A DNA stretch of 64,000 bases from an uncultured Lachnospiraceae bacterium (GTDB taxonomy: Bacteria > Bacillota > Clostridia > Lachnospirales > Lachnospiraceae). Location of the stretch: positions 23,777-87,776 of the forward strand of contig CACYPS010000029.1 in the NCBI GenBank assembly GCA_902776305.1, written 5' to 3'. The notes beneath the pieces are model-generated. The model was not told the origin of the DNA, made no database searches, and saw only the letters and a program-made list of their open reading frames with translations. The translations under genes and the position numbers were made by a program. How positions within the stretch are numbered: position 1 is the stretch's first letter; each line of letters begins with the position of its first letter. This document shows positions 7,650 to 40,034 of this stretch, piece after piece.

Positions 7650-7687
7650 TGTGAATTGTATGTCCTTTCTAAGTTAATATATGGTAT

Positions 7688-8099
7688 TACCGAAGTAACG
7701 ATAATTTTTGTCCCTGCTTCGGTATTCCTATTCTTGATTTCCCTGCCTTAAGCTGCCGGACTACCGAAGTAACTGAACTTTTACCCTCTGCTTCGGTGTT
7801 ACTATTCCTGATTTCCTTGCCTTAAGCTGCCGGACTACCGAAGTAATTGAGCTTTTGCTCCCTGCTTCGGTATTCCTGTTCTTGATTTCCCTGCCTTAAG
7901 CTGCCGGACTACCGAAGTAACTGAGCTTTTGGCGCCTGCTTCGGTATTCTTGTTCCTGATTTCTCTGCCTCAAGCTGTCGTTTTACCGAAGTAATTGAGC
8001 TTTTGGCGCCTGCTTCGGTATTCTTGTTCTTGATTTCTCTGCCTCGAGCCTCTGCTCTACCGAAGTAATTGAGCTTTTCTCGCCTGCTTCGGTATTCCC
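7688..8099. repeat. 74-bp tandem array of inverted-repeat units (array 2)
   Basis: Six units with left arms TACCGAAGTAA at 7688, 7762, 7836, 7910, 7984 and 8058 (period 74), each followed about 19 nt later by TGCTTCGGTATT. Arms use the CCGAAG/CTTCGG variant; the TG in the right arm would give a G-U wobble in RNA. Linkers share a CTTGATTTCTCTGCC core. The array fills the whole gap between the lipoprotein stop and the upstream region of the NifX-FKBP gene. Confidence 0.9.
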
Positions 8100-9986: not shown

Positions 9987-10051
9987 ATTGTATCCTCCGG
10001 GTAAGTATTCGATATTCCTGCTCTTGATTTCTATGACTTCGGCCTATGAAC

Positions 10052-10163
10052 TACCGAAGTAGCTGAGTTTTTGGCCTCTGCTTCGGTACTCCTGCTCCTG
10101 ATTTCTCTGACTTCGGCCTATGGACTACCGAAGTAACTGAGCTTTTGGCCTCTGCTTCGGTAT
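10052..10163. repeat. 74-bp inverted-repeat units (array 3)
   Basis: Two units with TACCGAAGTA at 10052 and 10126, each closed by TGCTTCGGTA about 20 nt later. Loop and linker sequences (GAGCTTTTGGC..., CTGATTTCTCTGAC) are clearly related to array 2. Located upstream of the iclR start, within its probable leader or promoter. Confidence 0.85.
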
Positions 10164-19630: not shown

Positions 19631-20473
19631 TTATCTGAGCTCCGTCGTCGGGATGTTGTCCATGTCGTCAAATGCCTGGTTCTCTCCACCCATCGCCCAA
19701 ATAAATGTATAGTTGCTTGTACCTGCACCGGAATGGATACTCCAGGACGGACTTATGACTGCTTCCTCGTTCTGCATAACGATATGTCTTGTCTCGTTTC
19801 CTTCGCCCATCATATGGAATACAACGTTGTTTTCCGGAACTTCGAAGTACATGTAGATTTCCATACGGCGCTCATGTGTATGTGCCGGCATTGTGTTCCA
19901 GACACTGCCCGGCTCGAGAACTGTCATACCCATAGAAAGCTGGCATGTTTTGAGAACGTCCGGATGGATGAACTGATTGATCGTACGCTTGTTGGATGTC
20001 TCCATAGCACCTACCGGGCGCTTGTTTGCCTTCTCGATCGGAATGAAGGTTGTCTTGTAAGCGCAGTGTGCAGGAGCGCTGACCATGTAGAACTTGGCCG
20101 GCTTCTCCGGATCAACACTCTTGAATGTAACTTTCTTTGTTCCCTGAGTGATGTAGAGGCAGTCCTTGTAGTTCATGTTGAAAGTATCGTCGTCAGCTGT
20201 GATGCAGCCTGCTCCGCCGATGTTGAAGATGCCGATCTCGCGGCGCTCAAGGATATAGTCGGTGCCGAAGTTGTGCCATACGTCGATGCCCTTTTCGAGG
20301 GGAACTTCCTCGTTGACCGGCATGCATCCGAATGTGACCATACGGTCAACATGGGAGTATACGCATACGACTTCGTCCGGGCGGTAAAGATTCGTGATGA
20401 GGAATTCATCGCGCATCTCCTGTGTGGTGTATCTCTTGAAATCTCTCTGATTTACCGAGTATCTGATGTCCAT
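19631..20473 (-). CDS. kduI: 5-keto-4-deoxyuronate isomerase
   Basis: 280 aa, the family length; GAAAGGA upstream. Cupin-fold Zn enzyme converting 5-keto-4-deoxyuronate to 2,5-diketo-3-deoxygluconate. The zinc-site block HTHERRMEIYMYFEVPENN and the terminal SIHSGAGTSNYTFIWAMGGEN are strongly conserved, as is YSVNQRDFKRYTTQEMR at the start. It is the first gene of the minus-strand kduI-isomerase-kduD-CE8 run. Its upstream region is an 8-unit repeat array whose distal unit has been split by an IS110 element; promoter elements must lie in or between repeats. Confidence 0.95.
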   Translation of the reverse strand: MDIRYSVNQRDFKRYTTQEMRDEFLITNLYRPDEVVCVYSHVDRMVTFGCMPVNEEVPLEKGIDVWHNFGTDYILERREIGIFNIGGAGCITADDDTFNMNYKDCLYITQGTKKVTFKSVDPEKPAKFYMVSAPAHCAYKTTFIPIEKANKRPVGAMETSNKRTINQFIHPDVLKTCQLSMGMTVLEPGSVWNTMPAHTHERRMEIYMYFEVPENNVVFHMMGEGNETRHIVMQNEEAVISPSWSIHSGAGTSNYTFIWAMGGENQAFDDMDNIPTTELR

Positions 20474-20522
20474 GGTGTGTCCTTTCTTATATGTAGATGT
20501 GTTTCTTTATTTGGTCTTTGAA

Positions 20523-21068
20523 TTACCGAAGTAGACGGTTTTCTCCCTTTTACTTCCGTAAATTCTTCTCTGGTTTCAATGCTCGTGCAGCCAATTTACC
20601 GAAGTAGACGCCATTCTCGCTTTTACTTCCGTAAATTCTTAGCTGGTTTCACAGACTCGAGCCGCCAACTTACCGAAGTAAACGGCATTCTCGCTCTTAC
20701 TTCCGTAAATTCTTAGCTGATTTCACAGACTCGAACCTGCAATTTACCGAAGTAAACGTAATTCTCGCTTCTACTTCCGTAAATTCTTCTATGCTTTCAA
20801 TGCTCGAGCCGTCAATTTACCGAAGTAGACGGCATTCTCGCTTTTACTTCCGTAAAGCCATCTTAGTTTCACCAGCTCGAGCCGTCAATTTACCGAAGTA
20901 GACGGCATTCTCGCTTTTACTTCCGTAAATTCTTCTCTGATTTCACTGACTCGAGCCTTCAATTTACCGAAGTAAACGGCATTCTCGCTTCTACTTCCGT
21001 AATCGCTTCTTAGTTTCACCAGCCCGAGCCGACAATTTACCGAAGTAAACGGCATTCTCGCTTCTACT
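20523..21068. repeat. 73-bp inverted-repeat array, hybrid arms, split by IS110 (array 6)
   Basis: Eight units with left arm TTACCGAAGTA and right arm TACTTCCGTAA, so each stem carries one C-C mismatch, unlike all other arrays. The loop is AGACGGCATTCTCGCTT-like; linkers contain TTTCAC...CTCGAGCC. The last unit stops at CTTCTACT (21068); its missing TCCGTAA is found at 22674-22680 on the far side of the insertion sequence. Confidence 0.95.
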
Positions 21069-21100
21069 CCTATTATATAGTTGTGGTGGTTAGATACCTC

Positions 21101-21300
21101 TCAGCCAGAAAGGACTAACCGTTCCATTGCTAAAGCTGTTAGAATAGGTGGGCATCGGTATGACACTCCTCTACTTGGACCTGTAAGCGTCCGTACGGAA
21201 GCCAGTCAGCCAGCCCTCCATTCGCAGCCGTTCGGTTTACGCAGGTTGGACTGCCTTGTGTATGTCCGCATGATACCCAGGAGATTGAATAAGCAATGGA
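21101..21300 (+). ncRNA. putative IS110 bridge RNA with target and donor loops
   Basis: Target loop: TCTACTT (21170-21176) equals the left target plus core, and TACGGAAG (21194-21201) is the exact reverse complement of core plus right target CTTCCGTA. The loop is closed by TGAC (21161-21164) pairing with GTCA (21205-21208). Donor loop: GCAGGTT (21241-21247) matches the right end GCAGG-CT, allowing a G-U pair at the core. AGGAG (21279-21283) is the reverse complement of core plus left end CTCCT. An inner stem GGAC/GTCC (21248-21251, 21264-21267) lies between. Layout and guide polarity follow the IS621 bridge-RNA model. RNA ends are estimates. Confidence 0.75.
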
Positions 21301-21344
21301 TAGCCGCTGGTACCATGCAATTCATTATTCTTGGGGGTACGAAC

Positions 21345-22562
21345 ATGTATAACGCAGTTGGTATTGATGTTTCAAAGGGTAAGAGCACCGTAGCGGTCCT
21401 GCAGCCGGGAGGCATTGTTGTTAAGAAACCCTATGACGTCTCACACACTGCCAGTGACCTGAAAGACCTTACTGATTACATCCGGTCCCTGGATGGGGAG
21501 ACGAAAGTAGTGATGGAATCTACCGGCAGATACCATGAACCGATACTCCACACACTGTCCGGTGCCGGGCTCTTTGTCAGTGCAGTAAACCCGCACCTGA
21601 TCAAGAACTATGGCAATAATACCCTCCGCAATAATAAATCCGATCCTATCGATTCCAGGAAGATTGCCCGGTATACGCTTGACAACTGGACAGAATTACG
21701 TGAATATTCCAGTATGGATACTACACGCGAACAACTCAAGACCCTGAATACACAGATGTCCTTCTTTACCAATCAGAAGGTCGCTGCCAAATCCAACCTG
21801 ATCTCGCTCCTGGATATGACTTATCCGGGCGTTAATGATCTCTTTGACTCCCCGACACGGGATGATGGGAGCGAGAAATGGGTCGATTATGCGGCTTCTT
21901 TCTGGCATGTGGACTGCGTCCGGAAGATCAGCCTGAATGCCTTTACAGAACGTTACCGCGCTTTCTGCAAGCGGCACGGCTACTGCTTCCAGCCTTCAAA
22001 GCCGGAGGAGCTTTACAATGCTTCAAAAGAGCTTGTCCCAGTATTTCCGAAAGAAAAGGAGTACAAGGAGATGATCCTGATGTGCATCAAGCAGCTCAAT
22101 GTCATCTCCGCCAATGTGGAGCGCACCCGCCAAAAAATGAATCAGCTTGCTTCCACCTTGCCGGAATACAGTACTGTCATGGGCATGTGTGGTGTTGGAC
22201 CTACCTTCGGGCCCCAGCTGATTGCTGAGATCGGAGATGTTTCCCGGTTCACTCATCGGGAAGCCCTCACAGCCTTTGCAGGTGTGGATCCTGGCGTGAA
22301 TGAGTCGGGCAAGTTCAAGAGCAAAAGCAATAAGGCTTCTAAATGCGGATCTGCCCGCCTCAGGAAAACACTGTTCCTCATTATGTCGTGTCTTCTCCAG
22401 ACGCAGCCTATTGACGATCCCGTCTATTGTTTTCTGGACAAGAAGCGCTCCGAGGGGAAGCCCTATCATGTCTACATGACTGCCGGTTCCAATAAGTTCC
22501 TTCGCATCTACTATGGCAAGGTCAAAGAATGTCTTCGGGCTCAGGCAGAAGCGGATAACTAA
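21345..22562 (+). CDS. IS110-family transposase (DEDD recombinase)
   Basis: 405 aa from the ATG at 21345 (GGGGG 8 bp upstream); the longer open frame back to 21081 runs through the bridge RNA and is rejected. The N-terminal RuvC-like DEDD domain has GIDVSKGKSTVAV (D), VMESTGRYHEP (E) and NNKSDPIDSRKIARY (DxxD). The C-terminal Transposase_20 domain has MCGVGPTFGPQLIAEIGDVS, then HREALTAFAGVDPGVNESGK, and the catalytic-serine region ASKCGSARLRKTL. It looks intact and may be active. It would recombine the circular element into sites specified by the bridge RNA. Confidence 0.95.
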   Translation: MYNAVGIDVSKGKSTVAVLQPGGIVVKKPYDVSHTASDLKDLTDYIRSLDGETKVVMESTGRYHEPILHTLSGAGLFVSAVNPHLIKNYGNNTLRNNKSDPIDSRKIARYTLDNWTELREYSSMDTTREQLKTLNTQMSFFTNQKVAAKSNLISLLDMTYPGVNDLFDSPTRDDGSEKWVDYAASFWHVDCVRKISLNAFTERYRAFCKRHGYCFQPSKPEELYNASKELVPVFPKEKEYKEMILMCIKQLNVISANVERTRQKMNQLASTLPEYSTVMGMCGVGPTFGPQLIAEIGDVSRFTHREALTAFAGVDPGVNESGKFKSKSNKASKCGSARLRKTLFLIMSCLLQTQPIDDPVYCFLDKKRSEGKPYHVYMTAGSNKFLRIYYGKVKECLRAQAEADN

Positions 22563-22696
22563 GCATTGTGGATAACTTCTCAGGCAAGCCATCTGCATGG
22601 TGGCTTTATTGTTGTATCCAAAATCAGTTTCATAAATTTTGTTAGATTTCTATTGACTTTTTATTAGCAGGCTTCCGTAATTTGCTCCTCCAGAGT

Positions 22697-22760
22697 CAGG
22701 CGACCATGCTTGCATGGTCATCTGACCCGCCAATCAAAGTTTGAAAGTTTACTTTCAAAC
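22697..22760. terminator. hairpins downstream of the YesL-like gene
   Basis: GACCATGC-TT-GCATGGTC (22702-22719) nested in GTCAG...CTGAC, then GTTTGAAAG-TTTA-CTTTCAAAC (22739-22760). They lie between the IS and the minus-strand gene ending at 22777; termination of that gene is plausible. Confidence 0.5.
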
Positions 22761-22776
22761 TTTCATCCGAAAAAGC

Positions 22777-23409
22777 TCACTCGTCCCACTCCGGCTCCTC
22801 TTTCGGAATATAATGTTGAAATACATTCAACTGGTATAGCGCAAATATATAAGCTATCGCCCCCGCCCCGAAAAACAGGGTGGCGTAAGCGGCAAGGTTA
22901 ATAGTAAACAGGTCGAGGTAAAGCACCAATCCCAGGATAATCAGCATCTGTATAGTCGTCTTCCAATGCTTGATTGCCATAACGATCGCGTAATGAATCG
23001 TCTGCGGGACAGAGTGGATGAACTTCGCCTGAATCGCAAATACATACACAAGCGATGCAAAATACGGTATTAGCAGCGCGACCGTCAGAATCCACATGAA
23101 CTTGACGCTGGAGCTGTCCATCTGGTTCCAGAAGATAAGGTTTCCGGCGAGGAGCGCCCCGATGACCGCATAAATCAGCCAAATCAGTGTAGCCTGCAGG
23201 AAATTCTCCTTGAAGGACTTGAAGAAATTGCTCAAAATATGTCCCTCATCTTTATGCAGCTTCATGCAGCTGTAAATGAGTGCTGTTGTAGATGCCCCGA
23301 TCGTAACGACCGGAAGGCAGCACAGAAGCCAGATGAGATCGAGAACCCAGATCTGTCCGAGCTTCGCTATACTTCTCCATACTACATTGTCTACACTAAA
23401 GAATTTCAT
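22777..23409 (-). CDS. yesL: DUF624/YesL-family membrane protein
   Basis: 210 aa with about five hydrophobic segments (near residues 20-45, 70-95, 105-130, 145-165, 170-195). The N-terminus MKFFSVDNVVWRSIAKLGQI, then LDLIWLLCCLPVVTIGASTTA is characteristic of the DUF624/YesL family. In Bacillus, yesL sits in the rhamnogalacturonan cluster beside an ABC importer; here it is downstream of GH28 and an ABC importer in the same orientation. Its precise role (transport accessory, sensing) is unknown. Confidence 0.8.
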   Translation of the reverse strand: MKFFSVDNVVWRSIAKLGQIWVLDLIWLLCCLPVVTIGASTTALIYSCMKLHKDEGHILSNFFKSFKENFLQATLIWLIYAVIGALLAGNLIFWNQMDSSSVKFMWILTVALLIPYFASLVYVFAIQAKFIHSVPQTIHYAIVMAIKHWKTTIQMLIILGLVLYLDLFTINLAAYATLFFGAGAIAYIFALYQLNVFQHYIPKEEPEWDE

Positions 23410-23444
23410 TGTCTTACCTCACCTGAAAACTCTGCCAGCGACAA

Positions 23445-23690
23445 CATACATCGCTTCTGACTTAAGCTCTATCGTCAACCAACATACATCACTTCTGACT
23501 TAAGCTCTATCGTCAACCAACATATATCGCTTCTGACTTAAGTTCTGCCATCAACCAACATACATCACTTTCTGACTTAAACTCTGCCGTCAACCAACAT
23601 ACATCACTTTCTGACTTAAGCTCTGCCGTCAACCGACATACATCGCTTCTGACTTAAGTTATGCCGTCAACCGACTCGCATCGCTTTCTC
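23445..23690. repeat. 38-39-bp direct repeat array
   Basis: Six full copies plus partials of CTTCTGACTTAAGCTCTRYC, then GTCAACCAACATACATCA. CTTAAG starts fall at 23461, 23499, 23537, 23576, 23615 and 23653. The array fills the gap between the GH28 stop and the YesL-like start. No inverted-repeat pairing like the 73-bp arrays. Confidence 0.85.
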
Positions 23691-25349
23691 TTATCTTTTT
23701 ATCTCATCAACATTTTCTGCCACAATCTCCTCGCCCTCGCATCCGGAAACACGGACATTTTCGAGAACTACGGATTTCGCATTCGTGATGTGAAGCCCCG
23801 CTCTTGAGCACGGGTCTATCCCCTCGGCCATGGCGGGAACGGAGGGCTGGGCATCATTTGCAAATGAAACCCTCACATCTCTCATCACAATCTCCCCGAT
23901 CTTCTTCTCCGGAAGCCCATCGATCCAGGCGGCAGCCGCATGACAGTCGCGGCAGTCGAGCTGCTCAAATGTCAGCCTCCCTATCTCAGGCGTCCGCGCA
24001 TCGACCGGCATCGCTTCGCGGTTCTGAACGTAACTGCTATGGCCGTCGGGATCGCAGAAATAGAAGGAATTCACGACCACCGGTGTCAGGACGCCTTTCA
24101 TCTCGATATCACGGAATGTGATGTCATCGATAACGGAATCCTTGCCGCGACCGCGGCGTGTCTTAATTCGAAGTCCGCGGTCCGTGCCGTCAAATACGCA
24201 GTTCTCGATCAGCACATTTTTCGCACCGCCGGCTATCTCGGAACCGATTGTGATCGAGCCGTGGCCACGCATGAGCAGGCTGTGCCGGATTGTGATGTTA
24301 CGGGAAGGTGACTTGTAGGTCTTGCCCATGTAAATCTTGCCGGATTTGATAGCTACGCAGTCATCACCTGTGTAGAGCTTTGCTCCGTAAATCTGCAGAC
24401 CGTCTACGGATTCGGGATCGATGCCGTCTGTGTTCGGTGAATCCGCCGGGTTGTGAACCTCTACGCCGTAGAAGGCAAGATCTTTGGAGAAATAGGGGTG
24501 GAGAGTCCAGCAGGGGCTATTTGCAAATAGCAGGCCCTGCAGCCGGATATTCTCACAGTGGTTGAGGAACAACATCTTCGGCCGGAACGGCGGCGTCTTG
24601 ATGCGCGCCTTGTTCCACCAGCCATCCACGGAAGCATTTCCGTCGATCGTTCCCTCGCCGTAAAGCACGACGTCCTGCACGCAGAGCCCGGTGATCAGGG
24701 ACACGTGCTGGTCGAGAGGATTTCCCTCCCAGCTGCCGAGTATGTATTCACTGTCTTCATTATAAGACTGAATGACGCCGGGGAGAAGGGGCAGGCGATC
24801 TGTACGGCCATCATTTTTGAGGATCGCGTCCCTCATAAGCTCAAGACGGAGACCGCTCTTAAGGAAGAGGCATGTGAACATATACACACCCTTCGGAATC
24901 AGGACCCGTCCATTCGGAGGACACGCGTTGATGGCAGTCTGGATGGCGAGGGTATCGTCCGTTTCGCCGTCACCCTTCGCGCCAAATGCGCGTACATTGA
25001 GAGTGAAGGACTCGGAGTCAGTACGGAAGGTGATGGCGGCAGCTTCTTTGCCGGCGTCTGCCGCTTCATGTGCTGCCTCCTGCCCGTCTTCTGTCGCATC
25101 GATCTCTCCGGCAGCCACTTTGTCTTTGGTCGTGGTTTCATTTTCCGCGACCGAATCTATCGAATAAACTTTCAGCTCATATTCTTTATCCGGCTTCAGC
25201 CCGAACAGGTTGGTAATCACGACATCTGTCGTGCCATAGTCTTTCCCGTTCAGGGTGAGACGGTACTTCTTTTGGGTGTGGTACTTGCCGCCGTCGGCGA
25301 TTTCGATGGTCGCGGAGCGAGCGGTATTAAATAAAACTTTGAGTTCCAT
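23691..25349 (-). CDS. polygalacturonase, GH28, cytoplasmic
   Basis: 552 aa. Residues 1-110 form a fibronectin-III-like domain (NGKDYGTTDVVITNLFGLKP, then DKEYELKVYSIDS), with an acidic alanine-rich linker at about 75-108. From 115 the pectate-lyase-superfamily start NVRAFGAKGDGETDDTLAIQ leads into the GH28 beta-helix. All four GH28 motifs are present: NTDGIDPES, TGDDCVAIKSG, GHGSITIGSE and RIKTRRGRG. The three catalytic aspartates are therefore intact. No signal peptide, so it probably trims imported oligogalacturonides, as exo-acting intracellular GH28 enzymes do. Clear ribosome binding site (GGAGGAAAATGC). Downstream of the ABC permeases on the same strand. Confidence 0.92.
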   Translation of the reverse strand: MELKVLFNTARSATIEIADGGKYHTQKKYRLTLNGKDYGTTDVVITNLFGLKPDKEYELKVYSIDSVAENETTTKDKVAAGEIDATEDGQEAAHEAADAGKEAAAITFRTDSESFTLNVRAFGAKGDGETDDTLAIQTAINACPPNGRVLIPKGVYMFTCLFLKSGLRLELMRDAILKNDGRTDRLPLLPGVIQSYNEDSEYILGSWEGNPLDQHVSLITGLCVQDVVLYGEGTIDGNASVDGWWNKARIKTPPFRPKMLFLNHCENIRLQGLLFANSPCWTLHPYFSKDLAFYGVEVHNPADSPNTDGIDPESVDGLQIYGAKLYTGDDCVAIKSGKIYMGKTYKSPSRNITIRHSLLMRGHGSITIGSEIAGGAKNVLIENCVFDGTDRGLRIKTRRGRGKDSVIDDITFRDIEMKGVLTPVVVNSFYFCDPDGHSSYVQNREAMPVDARTPEIGRLTFEQLDCRDCHAAAAWIDGLPEKKIGEIVMRDVRVSFANDAQPSVPAMAEGIDPCSRAGLHITNAKSVVLENVRVSGCEGEEIVAENVDEIKR

Positions 25350-31686: not shown

Positions 31687-31878
31687 GGAGTACAAGACTT
31701 GTTTAAATATTCTGAACATCTAATTGTATCCTAAACATAATTCACCATGGTGTCAAATGATGTTTTATGCTCTAAATATCTATTTTTATATTTACTTATT
31801 ATAAGTATATGAATAGGGTTGTTTTGCTTCGGTATATGAATTATAAATGCTGAGGGGGTGCTGTAAGGCAGGGAAGAT

Positions 31879-32654
31879 TACCGAAGTAATCGGCTATTCT
31901 TGCTCTGCTTCGGTATTGCAATGCCGGCGGGCACTGTATGGCATGGAAGGATTACCGAAGTAGGCGGCCAATCTTGCTATACTTCGGTATTGCAATACCG
32001 GCAGGCTCTGTATGGAATGGATGGTTTACCGAAGTAGCCGCTTAATCTTGCTCTGCTTCGGTATTTCAATGCCGGCGGACTCTGTATGGAATGGCTGGTT
32101 TACCGAAGTAGCCGCTTAATCTTGCTCTACTTCGGTATTTCAATGCCGGCGGGCTCTGTATGGAATGGATGGTTTACCGAAGTAGCCGCTTAATCTTGCT
32201 CTGCTTCGGTATTGCAATGCCGGCGGGCCCTGTATGGAATGGATGGTTTACCGAAGTAGCCGCTTAATCTTGTTCTGCTTCGGTATTTCAATGCCGGCGG
32301 GCTCTGTATGGAATGGATGGTTTACCGAAGTAGCCGCTTAATCTTGCTCTGCTTCGGTATTTCAATGCCGGCGGGCTCTGTATGGAATGGATGGTTTACC
32401 GAAGTAGCCGCTTAATCTTGTTCTGCTTCGGTATTTCAATGTCGGCGGGCTCTGTATGGCATGGATGGTTTACCGAAGTAGCCGCTTAATCTTGCTCTAC
32501 TTCGGTATTTCAATGTCGGCGGGCTCTGTATGGCATGGATGGTTTACCGAAGTAGCCGCTTAATCTTGTTCTACTTCGGTATTTCACCCTGTAGGATATG
32601 GTATGGCAAGACAGCTTTACCGAAGTAGCCGCTTAATCTTGCTCTGCTTCGGTA
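31879..32654. repeat. 73-74-bp inverted-repeat array, 11 units (array 7)
   Basis: The longest array. Eleven units TTTACCGAAGTAGCCGCTTA, then ATCTTGCTCTGCTTCGGTAT and a linker TTCAATGCCGGCGGGCTCTG, TATGGAATGGATGG. Successive units are nearly identical in the middle, diverging at both ends. CCGAAG/CTTCGG arm variant; right arms alternate TGCTTCGG and TACTTCGG. Located between araC and the isomerase gene. Confidence 0.95.
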
Positions 32655-39626: not shown

Positions 39627-40034
39627 TTACCGAAGCAGACGGCATTCTTGCTCCTACTTCGGTATTCCTTGGGCTTGTTTGTCTTACATCTGCTGCCCGT
39701 TTACCGAAGCAGACACCATTCTTGCTTTTACTTCGGTATCCCTTGGGCTTGTTTGTCTTGCAATTGCTCCCGGTTTACCGAAGCAGACACCCTTCTTGCT
39801 TTTACTTCGGTATCCCTTGGGCTTGTTTGTCTTGCAATTGCTCCCGGTTTACCGAAGTAGCCGCCATTCTTGCTCCTACTTCGGTATCCCTTGGGCTTGT
39901 TTGTCTTGCAATTGCTCCCGGTTTACCGAAGTAGCCGCCATTCTTGCTCCTACTTCGGTATTCCTTGGGCTTGTTTGTCTTGCATCTGCTGCCCGTTTAC
40001 CGAAGTAGCCGCCATTCTTGCTCCCACTTCGGTA
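39627..40034. repeat. 74-bp inverted-repeat array (array 9)
   Basis: Six units TTTACCGAAGYAG...CATTCTTGCTCCTACTTCGG, TATTCCTTGGGCTTGTTTGT, CTTGCAATTGCTCCCGG. The first three left arms read GAAGCAG, the last three GAAGTAG; right arms are constant TACTTCGG. The GAAGC form would wobble-pair only in minus-strand RNA. Open frames across this array are by-products of the repeats. Confidence 0.95.

Follow-up and report, generated by a model that had tools for sequence, protein, structure and literature searches.

The window analysed here comprises 64,000 nucleotides (nt) of an uncultured Lachnospiraceae bacterium (GenBank assembly GCA_902776305.1, contig CACYPS010000029.1) and contains, at positions 21067–22673, an insertion sequence (IS) of the IS110 type that is intact from edge to edge. 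The present analysis deals with this element, with the putative bridge RNA encoded upstream of its transposase gene and with the hairpin repeat in which it is inserted; all features of the element and its target are on the plus strand. Both edges carry the core dinucleotide CT, one of the two being target DNA. The left core (21067–21068) is followed by the right donor CCTATTATA and was placed by aligning the edges of relatives; the right core (22672–22673) is preceded by the left donor TTAGCAGG and was read directly. These edges had already been named in a sequence-only reading of the window by a model and proved right: the flanks joined without the element read ...CGGCATTCTCGCTTCTA-CT-TCCGTAATTT..., a unit resembling its neighbours in the tandem hairpin-repeat array at 20523–21066 that holds the target, and identical element ends at other sites of the related genome G011 support the same limits.

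Elements of the IS110 family lack terminal inverted repeats, and among the 17 inverted-repeat pairs with arms of at least 9 nt in the element none links its two ends. The same search gave no pair joining the two end regions in the manner of the subterminal inverted repeats of the IS1111 type. A non-coding stretch of 278 nt precedes the ATG and 111 nt follow the stop codon, the long upstream non-coding region being a feature of the IS110 group proper; the guide region lies upstream of the gene and not downstream, the usual position in IS1111. The transposase gene (21345–22562, 405 amino acids) encodes a DEDD (RuvC-like) N-terminal domain (DEDD_Tnp_IS110, E 3.1e-29) and the C-terminal domain Transposase_20 (E 3.7e-19), both above the Pfam cut-off, and its product matches IS621 (8wt6, E 1.1e-19, two separate stretches) and ISCro4 in the PDB. 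All five residues named as catalytic in IS621 (D11, E60, D102, D105 and S241; PMC11208158, excerpt) are identical in the phmmer alignment to 8wt6, with positions counted by hand and the chain numbering of 8wt6 lying 2 above that of the paper. By these features the element is a member of the IS110 family, with every IS621-type feature that we looked for.

In the region upstream of the gene we located the left target guide (LTG), TCTA plus the core CT, at 21170–21175, and the right target guide (RTG), ACGGA plus AG, at 21195–21201; the latter is the reverse complement of CT-TCCGT. The programmed part of the left target is TCTA at 21063–21066, read directly and from the alignment of relatives, and that of the right target is TCCGT at 22674–22678, followed by AA, read directly and from covariation in relatives. 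Together with the core all 11/11 programmed letters fit in the window element. The sequence-only reading had listed four motifs, TCTACTT (21170–21176), TACGGAAG (21194–21201), GCAGGTT (21241–21247) and AGGAG (21279–21283), all of which are where it put them. It had taken the first for a copy of the left target and the second for the reverse complement of core plus right target. TCTA plus CT and the ACGGAAG part stood, whereas the final T of the first motif is part of the scaffold CT[T/A]GGAC and the initial T of the second one part of the scaffold GTCCGT.

This separation of variable guide and near-constant scaffold comes from the relatives. They were collected, the region upstream of the gene was aligned and guide letters were taken from fixed columns, with the LTG directly before CT[T/A]GGAC and the RTG directly after GTCCGT. 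Since the relatives fix the guide columns, little freedom is left for a search for motifs. From the resulting 79 loci (L050, L066, L051, L017 and eight duplicates omitted) one locus per guide pair was used for permutation, leaving 66 for the LTG and, for the RTG, 41 in which the right flank was readable and the guide contained AG. The LTG agreed with its own left flank in 325/594 letters compared to 212.5 after permutation (standard deviation 10.9), the RTG with its own right flank in 195/328 compared to 103.0 (standard deviation 6.6), and 0/20,000 permutations were as high in either case. An earlier run gave the same picture (LTG 279/468 vs 190.5; RTG 188/328 vs 101.6); there L050, L066, L051, L046 and five duplicate records were omitted, L050 being restored for the RTG, and copies of one element were counted apart. 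The signal covers positions 1–7 left of the core and 1–5 right of it and none beyond; target positions 6–8 on the right are without signal (14 vs 12.4, 3 vs 3.3 and 9 vs 9.0 expected). Judged by this covariation, guide matching is as in IS621-type elements, with the target guides fitting the flanks of their element.

The short motifs had at first been picked by eye, as would be expected if the guide matches were due to chance or to motifs chosen after seeing the target. However, with the columns fixed by relatives and the window element removed (n = 65 for the LTG, n = 40 for the RTG), again 0/20,000 permutations reached the observed value for each guide, and 9/9 non-core programmed letters match in the window element, for which simple arithmetic gives a chance of about 4^-9. 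We regard this explanation as refuted by the permutation test and consider it extremely improbable.

The sequence-only reading had suggested a covariance search of the 5’ region, and this search was successful. A covariance model (R1) built from 29 relatives, with the window element left out, matched the target-binding half of the predicted bridge RNA at 21132–21234 (cmsearch, 95.4 bits, E 2.4e-21), the sole match at E ≤ 1 in the window. Between both target guides lies a hairpin GGAC...GTCC (21177–21192), which corresponds to helix 4 of R1, with 99.1% of cells paired in the relatives. An outer stem, TCCATTGCT (21123–21131) with AGCAATGGA (21292–21300), encloses both loops; it is a perfect 9-nt inverted repeat and corresponds to the outer helix of the consensus structure. 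The consensus structures obtained from 19 and from 30 sequences, window included, contain a 5’ stem-loop, a target loop in which the two guides flank the GGAC/GTCC hairpin, and a similarly built donor loop, with both-sided changes in 15/47 and 13/25 pairs, respectively. Among the 29 relatives 96.4% of cells in the target-half helices are paired and 34 cells are compensatory, compared to 10.7 after shuffling; when the partner strand was slid by 1–3 columns pairing fell to 17–44%. An Rfam scan of 20000–23500 gave 0 matches at E ≤ 1.

In the donor loop the left donor guide (LDG) GCAGGTT (21241–21247) faces the element’s own right end GCAGG-CT, and the right donor guide (RDG) AGGAG (21279–21283) its own left end CTCCT. 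That both represent the element’s own ends had been claimed before; for AGGAG this is borne out by covariation, for GCAGGTT it was read directly only. The RDG was located in 70/79 loci and not in 9, the loci comprising nine end types, some with a TT core. It agreed with the element’s own left end in 313/350 letters compared to 237.8 after permutation, and 53/70 located guides were exact in all 5. In addition, the sequence of the relatives’ ends predicts a sigma-70 promoter that would be formed when the ends are joined, as IS621-type elements have: its -35 would be TTGACT at 22653–22658 and its -10 TATTAT at 21071–21076. Among 49 loci with both ends, TTGACT is found in 47/49 and a -10 with at least 4/6 consensus letters in 49/49, whereby the 17-nt spacer follows from the fixed length of the end motifs and is no independent result.

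We then looked for further copies in the genus. A DNA match to the element was present in 8 of 42 genomes, identical ends only in the genome of the window (G000) and in G011, which is 76% complete. Both are drafts, so copies may be missing. In G011 three left ends (137–139 nt) and three right ends (132–134 nt), 100% identical to ours and every one at a contig end, lie at other sites and stop exactly at the edges of the window element. The left flanks before CT read GTCTA, CTCTA and TTATA, the right flanks TCCGTAA in 3/3. As the sequence-only reading had named copies at unrelated targets as the finding that would speak against it, it is of importance that the copy in G000 and all six junctions in G011 fit the guide; its expectation of flanks reading TCTA-CT-TCCGTA held for most left and right flanks, the TATA copy being one letter off. 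A diverged relative in a further genome (G028) has the guide CCTC-CT and the left flank CCTC.

Of the three left flanks, those of L010 and L013 are part of the hairpin repeat, while the third, TTATA (L003), lies in a gene. Its left flank is 99% identical to an empty place in G000, CTCTCTTATA-CT-TCCGTCTACACC, inside an open reading frame (ORF) of 1087 codons. This empty site, TATA-CT-TCCGTC, is not the hairpin repeat, and 10/11 programmed letters fit. None of the three right flanks corresponds to the right side of the TATA site, so G011 would hold at least four insertions, and the missing right junction of this copy is predicted to read CT-TCCGTCTAC. The right half of the gene was sought in G011, with one 66% match elsewhere. 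The orthologue of the window insertion site (query 22770–24400) was not found in G011, and the right flank of copy L016 matched only a dispersed repeat of about 85 bp in G000. Across the region of the TATA copy (L003 vs L135) the two genomes, although classed as distinct species, have 900 bases in common at 99% identity, besides identical IS ends; this suggests recent exchange or close kinship.

An obvious alternative is that the transposase responds to the palindrome of the repeat, either folded into a hairpin or by way of a host protein bound to it, and that the agreement between guide and site is coincidental. The window site, like two left flanks in G011, lies in the repeat, the three right flanks read TCCGTAA like the repeat, and IS in repetitive extragenic palindromic (REP) sequences are known (PMC1525189, excerpt). 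The copy in the long ORF at TATA-CT-TCCGTC is outside the repeat, however, and relatives sharing the scaffold are inserted at other sites, which fit their own guides. Because of the copy in the gene we conclude that the RNA letters and not the palindrome probably choose the site, and we consider recognition of the palindrome very unlikely. The earlier claim that the element is programmed for a chromosomal repeat family has therefore to be modified: it lands mostly in repeats, but the unit that is read comprises about 11 letters.

The repeat has the unit TTACsGAAGTA-N17-TACTTCsGTAA. In the array next to the element and in others the strict unit measures 39 bp and the period of 73–74 bp is close to seven helical turns. 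The strict pattern occurs 83 times in G000, 27 times in G011 and 0 times in six other genomes of the genus that were searched. The programmed letters TCTACTTCCGT, i.e. perfect sites, were counted 21 times in G000, 17 times in G011 and 0–2 times in four other genomes searched, and TCTACTTCCGTAA 18 times in G000, 13 times in G011, once in G033 and 0 times in the other 39. Only G000 and G011, out of the 42 genomes, contain the exact target letters in high number. TACTTCCGTAA is present in 119 copies in G000 and 98 in G011, with TC in front of only 18 and 13, respectively, whereas TC precedes the site in all three repeat insertions for which the left flank is available (window, L010, L013). This is a small sign that the left guide may choose among repeats. 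Further hairpin arrays, in a TACTTCGGTAA form that deviates from the right guide by one letter, are found at 7687–8057, 10051–10125, 31878–32617 and 39627–39997; within the window they are free of the element.

In the transposase tree, for which the root was set at midpoint, the window element belongs to a group of 20 (support 100/100), in which CTC precedes the core in 15 of the 18 further members whose guide could be read. Support is low for the branch to L050 (85/45) and higher for the six-row group that surrounds the window element (99/93). Guides of the CTC type are the reverse complement of Shine-Dalgarno (SD) letters; CTC has been lost from the guide of the window element and from those of its neighbours L049, L050 and L065. 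SD-like guides are the majority in the surrounding clade, and the repeat looks like a newly acquired target, a point that the earlier claim of programming for the repeat did not include. From the position in the tree the repeat guide would be the derived state, and given that the clade has mostly SD-like guides the window element looks naturally reprogrammed.

In order to relate guides to landing sites we scored an ATG at 3–18 nt from the core on the opposite strand that opens an ORF with a minimum length of 60 codons, or of 25 where a contig end truncates it, in the 79 loci. Such an ORF lies beside the core in 32/53 loci with SD-like guides and in 1/26 loci with other guides (Fisher 4.5e-7), where four window-type loci are counted as SD-like though not at SD sites, so that they add to the 53 and also to the 21 lacking a start. 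At random positions the rule is satisfied in 1440/14,600 cases. With one locus per guide pair the values are 28/42 and 1/24, and with GTG and TTG also allowed 35/53 and 3/26; an earlier count with a start codon 3–16 nt from the core gave 31/79 loci. On the right flank, taken as control, 4/46 loci have a start, compared to 23/46 on the left. The landing rule rests on ORFs and not on annotation in all but one case. Annotation is present in two of three records looked at: in a Selenomonas ruminantium plasmid a gene for an L,D-transpeptidase, located on the opposite strand, has its start roughly 12 bases away from the left edge, and in a Pseudobutyrivibrio record of a more distant relative no gene start is annotated at that place. 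In genome G580 four copies of one IS110 element with the guide CTCCTTT-CT (L088, L096, L099, L100) lie on one contig at purine-rich SD-like sites, two of them with an ATG ORF by the rule, a good natural set for target statistics. A scan of IMG/VR gave 2 related loci.

Even with bridge-RNA guidance, landing at an SD could also mean that harmless insertions survive or that the motif is frequent, without the guide being kept for SD, since any CTCCT guide would land before genes where AGGAG-like letters are common. The left end of the close group itself begins with CTCCT. In this group the cut would split the SD, which is then restored by the element’s left end (AGGAG as read on the gene strand). 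Mean SD pairing is -11.68 before insertion, -11.54 after it and, for a random edge, -8.99 (n = 14, p = 6e-5). The second group (n = 13) has another left end, CTACT; its guides are nevertheless complementary to SD (e.g. TTCCTC-CT, TCCTTT-CT), and the SD stays on the gene side, slightly weakened (-11.88 before, -10.61 after, -11.29 random edge). For all 30 loci, selected by an ATG 3–18 nt from the core only and without the ORF length test, pairing after insertion did not differ clearly from that before it (p = 0.11) or from a random edge (p = 0.051), and rebuilding of the SD is, by these pairing values, a result for the close group only. Frequency or survival as the cause is a tenable but less likely account, against which stand the restored pairing in the close group, the guides of the second group and the much better prediction of the kind of site by SD-like guides.

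Taken together, we assign a probability of about 0.94 to the reading that the window contains an IS110-group element which moves by bridge-RNA-guided recombination as IS621 does, lands mostly in host repeats and carries a guide changed from an SD-type ancestor. Excision would join the element’s ends into a circle, whereupon the -35 of the right end and the -10 of the left end would form a promoter from which the upstream region could be transcribed as bridge RNA. In the cell the donor loop would pair with the element’s own joined ends and the target loop with the site, and the DEDD-serine transposase would swap strands at the CT core. The element would land mostly in hairpin arrays because the host arrays spell TCTA-CT-TCCGT many times, and it most likely descends from an SD-guided ancestor through changed guide letters. 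The IS621 mechanism proposed by the sequence-only reading is upheld by covariation of guides with target and donor, the conserved RNA fold, the catalytic residues, the predicted joined-end promoter and the other copies.

Several points weigh against this reading. The evidence for the bridge RNA is from sequence only, and the draft genome of the window has one copy only. The TATA copy has a mismatch within the four core-adjacent left letters, and its right junction is missing from the G011 assembly, so that the letters of its site were taken from the empty orthologue; in G011 not every left contig end could be assigned to a right one. In the window element the left guide has only a short match, four letters next to the core and then 1/3 at positions 5–7, though relatives carry signal there. 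The stability of the window RNA folded alone is unremarkable (z -1.24; 21/200 shuffles as good), and support for the RNA comes from covariation and not from bare fold stability. Finally, CT is present at the aligned guide core in only 58/79 loci, the other 21 being TT-core relatives, drift or alignment slips. A more distant branch (L090–L094, L097, L098, L112 and L113 among others) has mostly TT for the CT core, in its ends and donor guides alike, with CT in L095.

With more reserve, we lean towards a wider picture in which a large IS110 clade of Bacillota is generally programmed for SD, the ribosome binding site is left in place or rebuilt so that insertion is gentle, members may escape to private repeats by rewriting about nine letters, and spread follows the spelled letters. 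If true, the SD would offer a target before many genes of any host. The dozens of related guides and their paired targets allow the rules of bridge RNAs to be examined in naturally occurring elements of Bacillota: from them the guide lengths (about 6–7 letters left of the core, 5 right of it) and the change of guides in evolution can be read, as well as the choice of site by letters rather than by repeat structure. Furthermore it suggests a possible reason why IS900-like elements sit at translation signals.

IS621 of E. coli inserts in REP repeats, and IS900 is a member of the IS110 family. The window element resembles IS621 in its DEDD-serine transposase, in an upstream RNA with target and donor loops, in guides on either side of a stem-loop, in the CT core and in the joined-end promoter (PMC11208160, PMC11208158, excerpts); it differs in a distant transposase, in other guide and scaffold letters, in a right guide of 5 letters past the core and in targeting another repeat. 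ISPpu9, ISPpu10, ISPa11, ISPsy8, ISRm22 and ISRm19 are likewise found repeatedly in a palindromic chromosomal repeat (PMC1525189, excerpt), whereas for the window element the guide was read and explains the site, and one copy is outside the repeat. Natural reprogramming has been described for ISEc11 and ISXne4, which are related to each other but have distinct guide RNAs that fit distinct targets; in contrast to our element they belong to the IS1111 group, with subterminal inverted repeats and a guide region that is usually downstream of the transposase (PMC11187229, excerpt). IS900 of Mycobacterium avium subsp. paratuberculosis has the target motif CATGNNNNNNTCTCCTT, which is an SD plus start codon on the opposite strand (PMC8141618, excerpt, which cites Doran et al. 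1997). Site kind and orientation are the same as for many relatives of the window element, with the differences that the host group is another one, that the window element itself has left the SD-type target and that the comparison is by target motif and not by guide RNA. Having found IS900 we dropped the notion of SD targeting as unprecedented. Both “Shine-Dalgarno” and “ribosome” are absent from the main text of Durrant et al., and a search joining IS110 with Shine-Dalgarno or ribosome binding site, with subscription journals and preprints outside its coverage, gave no paper holding all terms. A guide-RNA account of SD targeting, or a clade with SD-like guides as rule and repeats as exception, was not found in print within the literature searched.

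An IS900-like antisense ORF at 22023–22598 of the window was also considered and rejected as not conserved: among 17 close-group loci including the window, antisense ORFs of more than 100 amino acids starting within 600 nt of the right end occur only in the window (191 amino acids) and in L048 (150 amino acids). On the right the element adjoins the dispersed repeat of about 85 bp, which at 22677–22762 contains two palindromes. A query holding this repeat gave 46 matches in the own genome, 35 of them at least 65 nt long at 85–100% identity.
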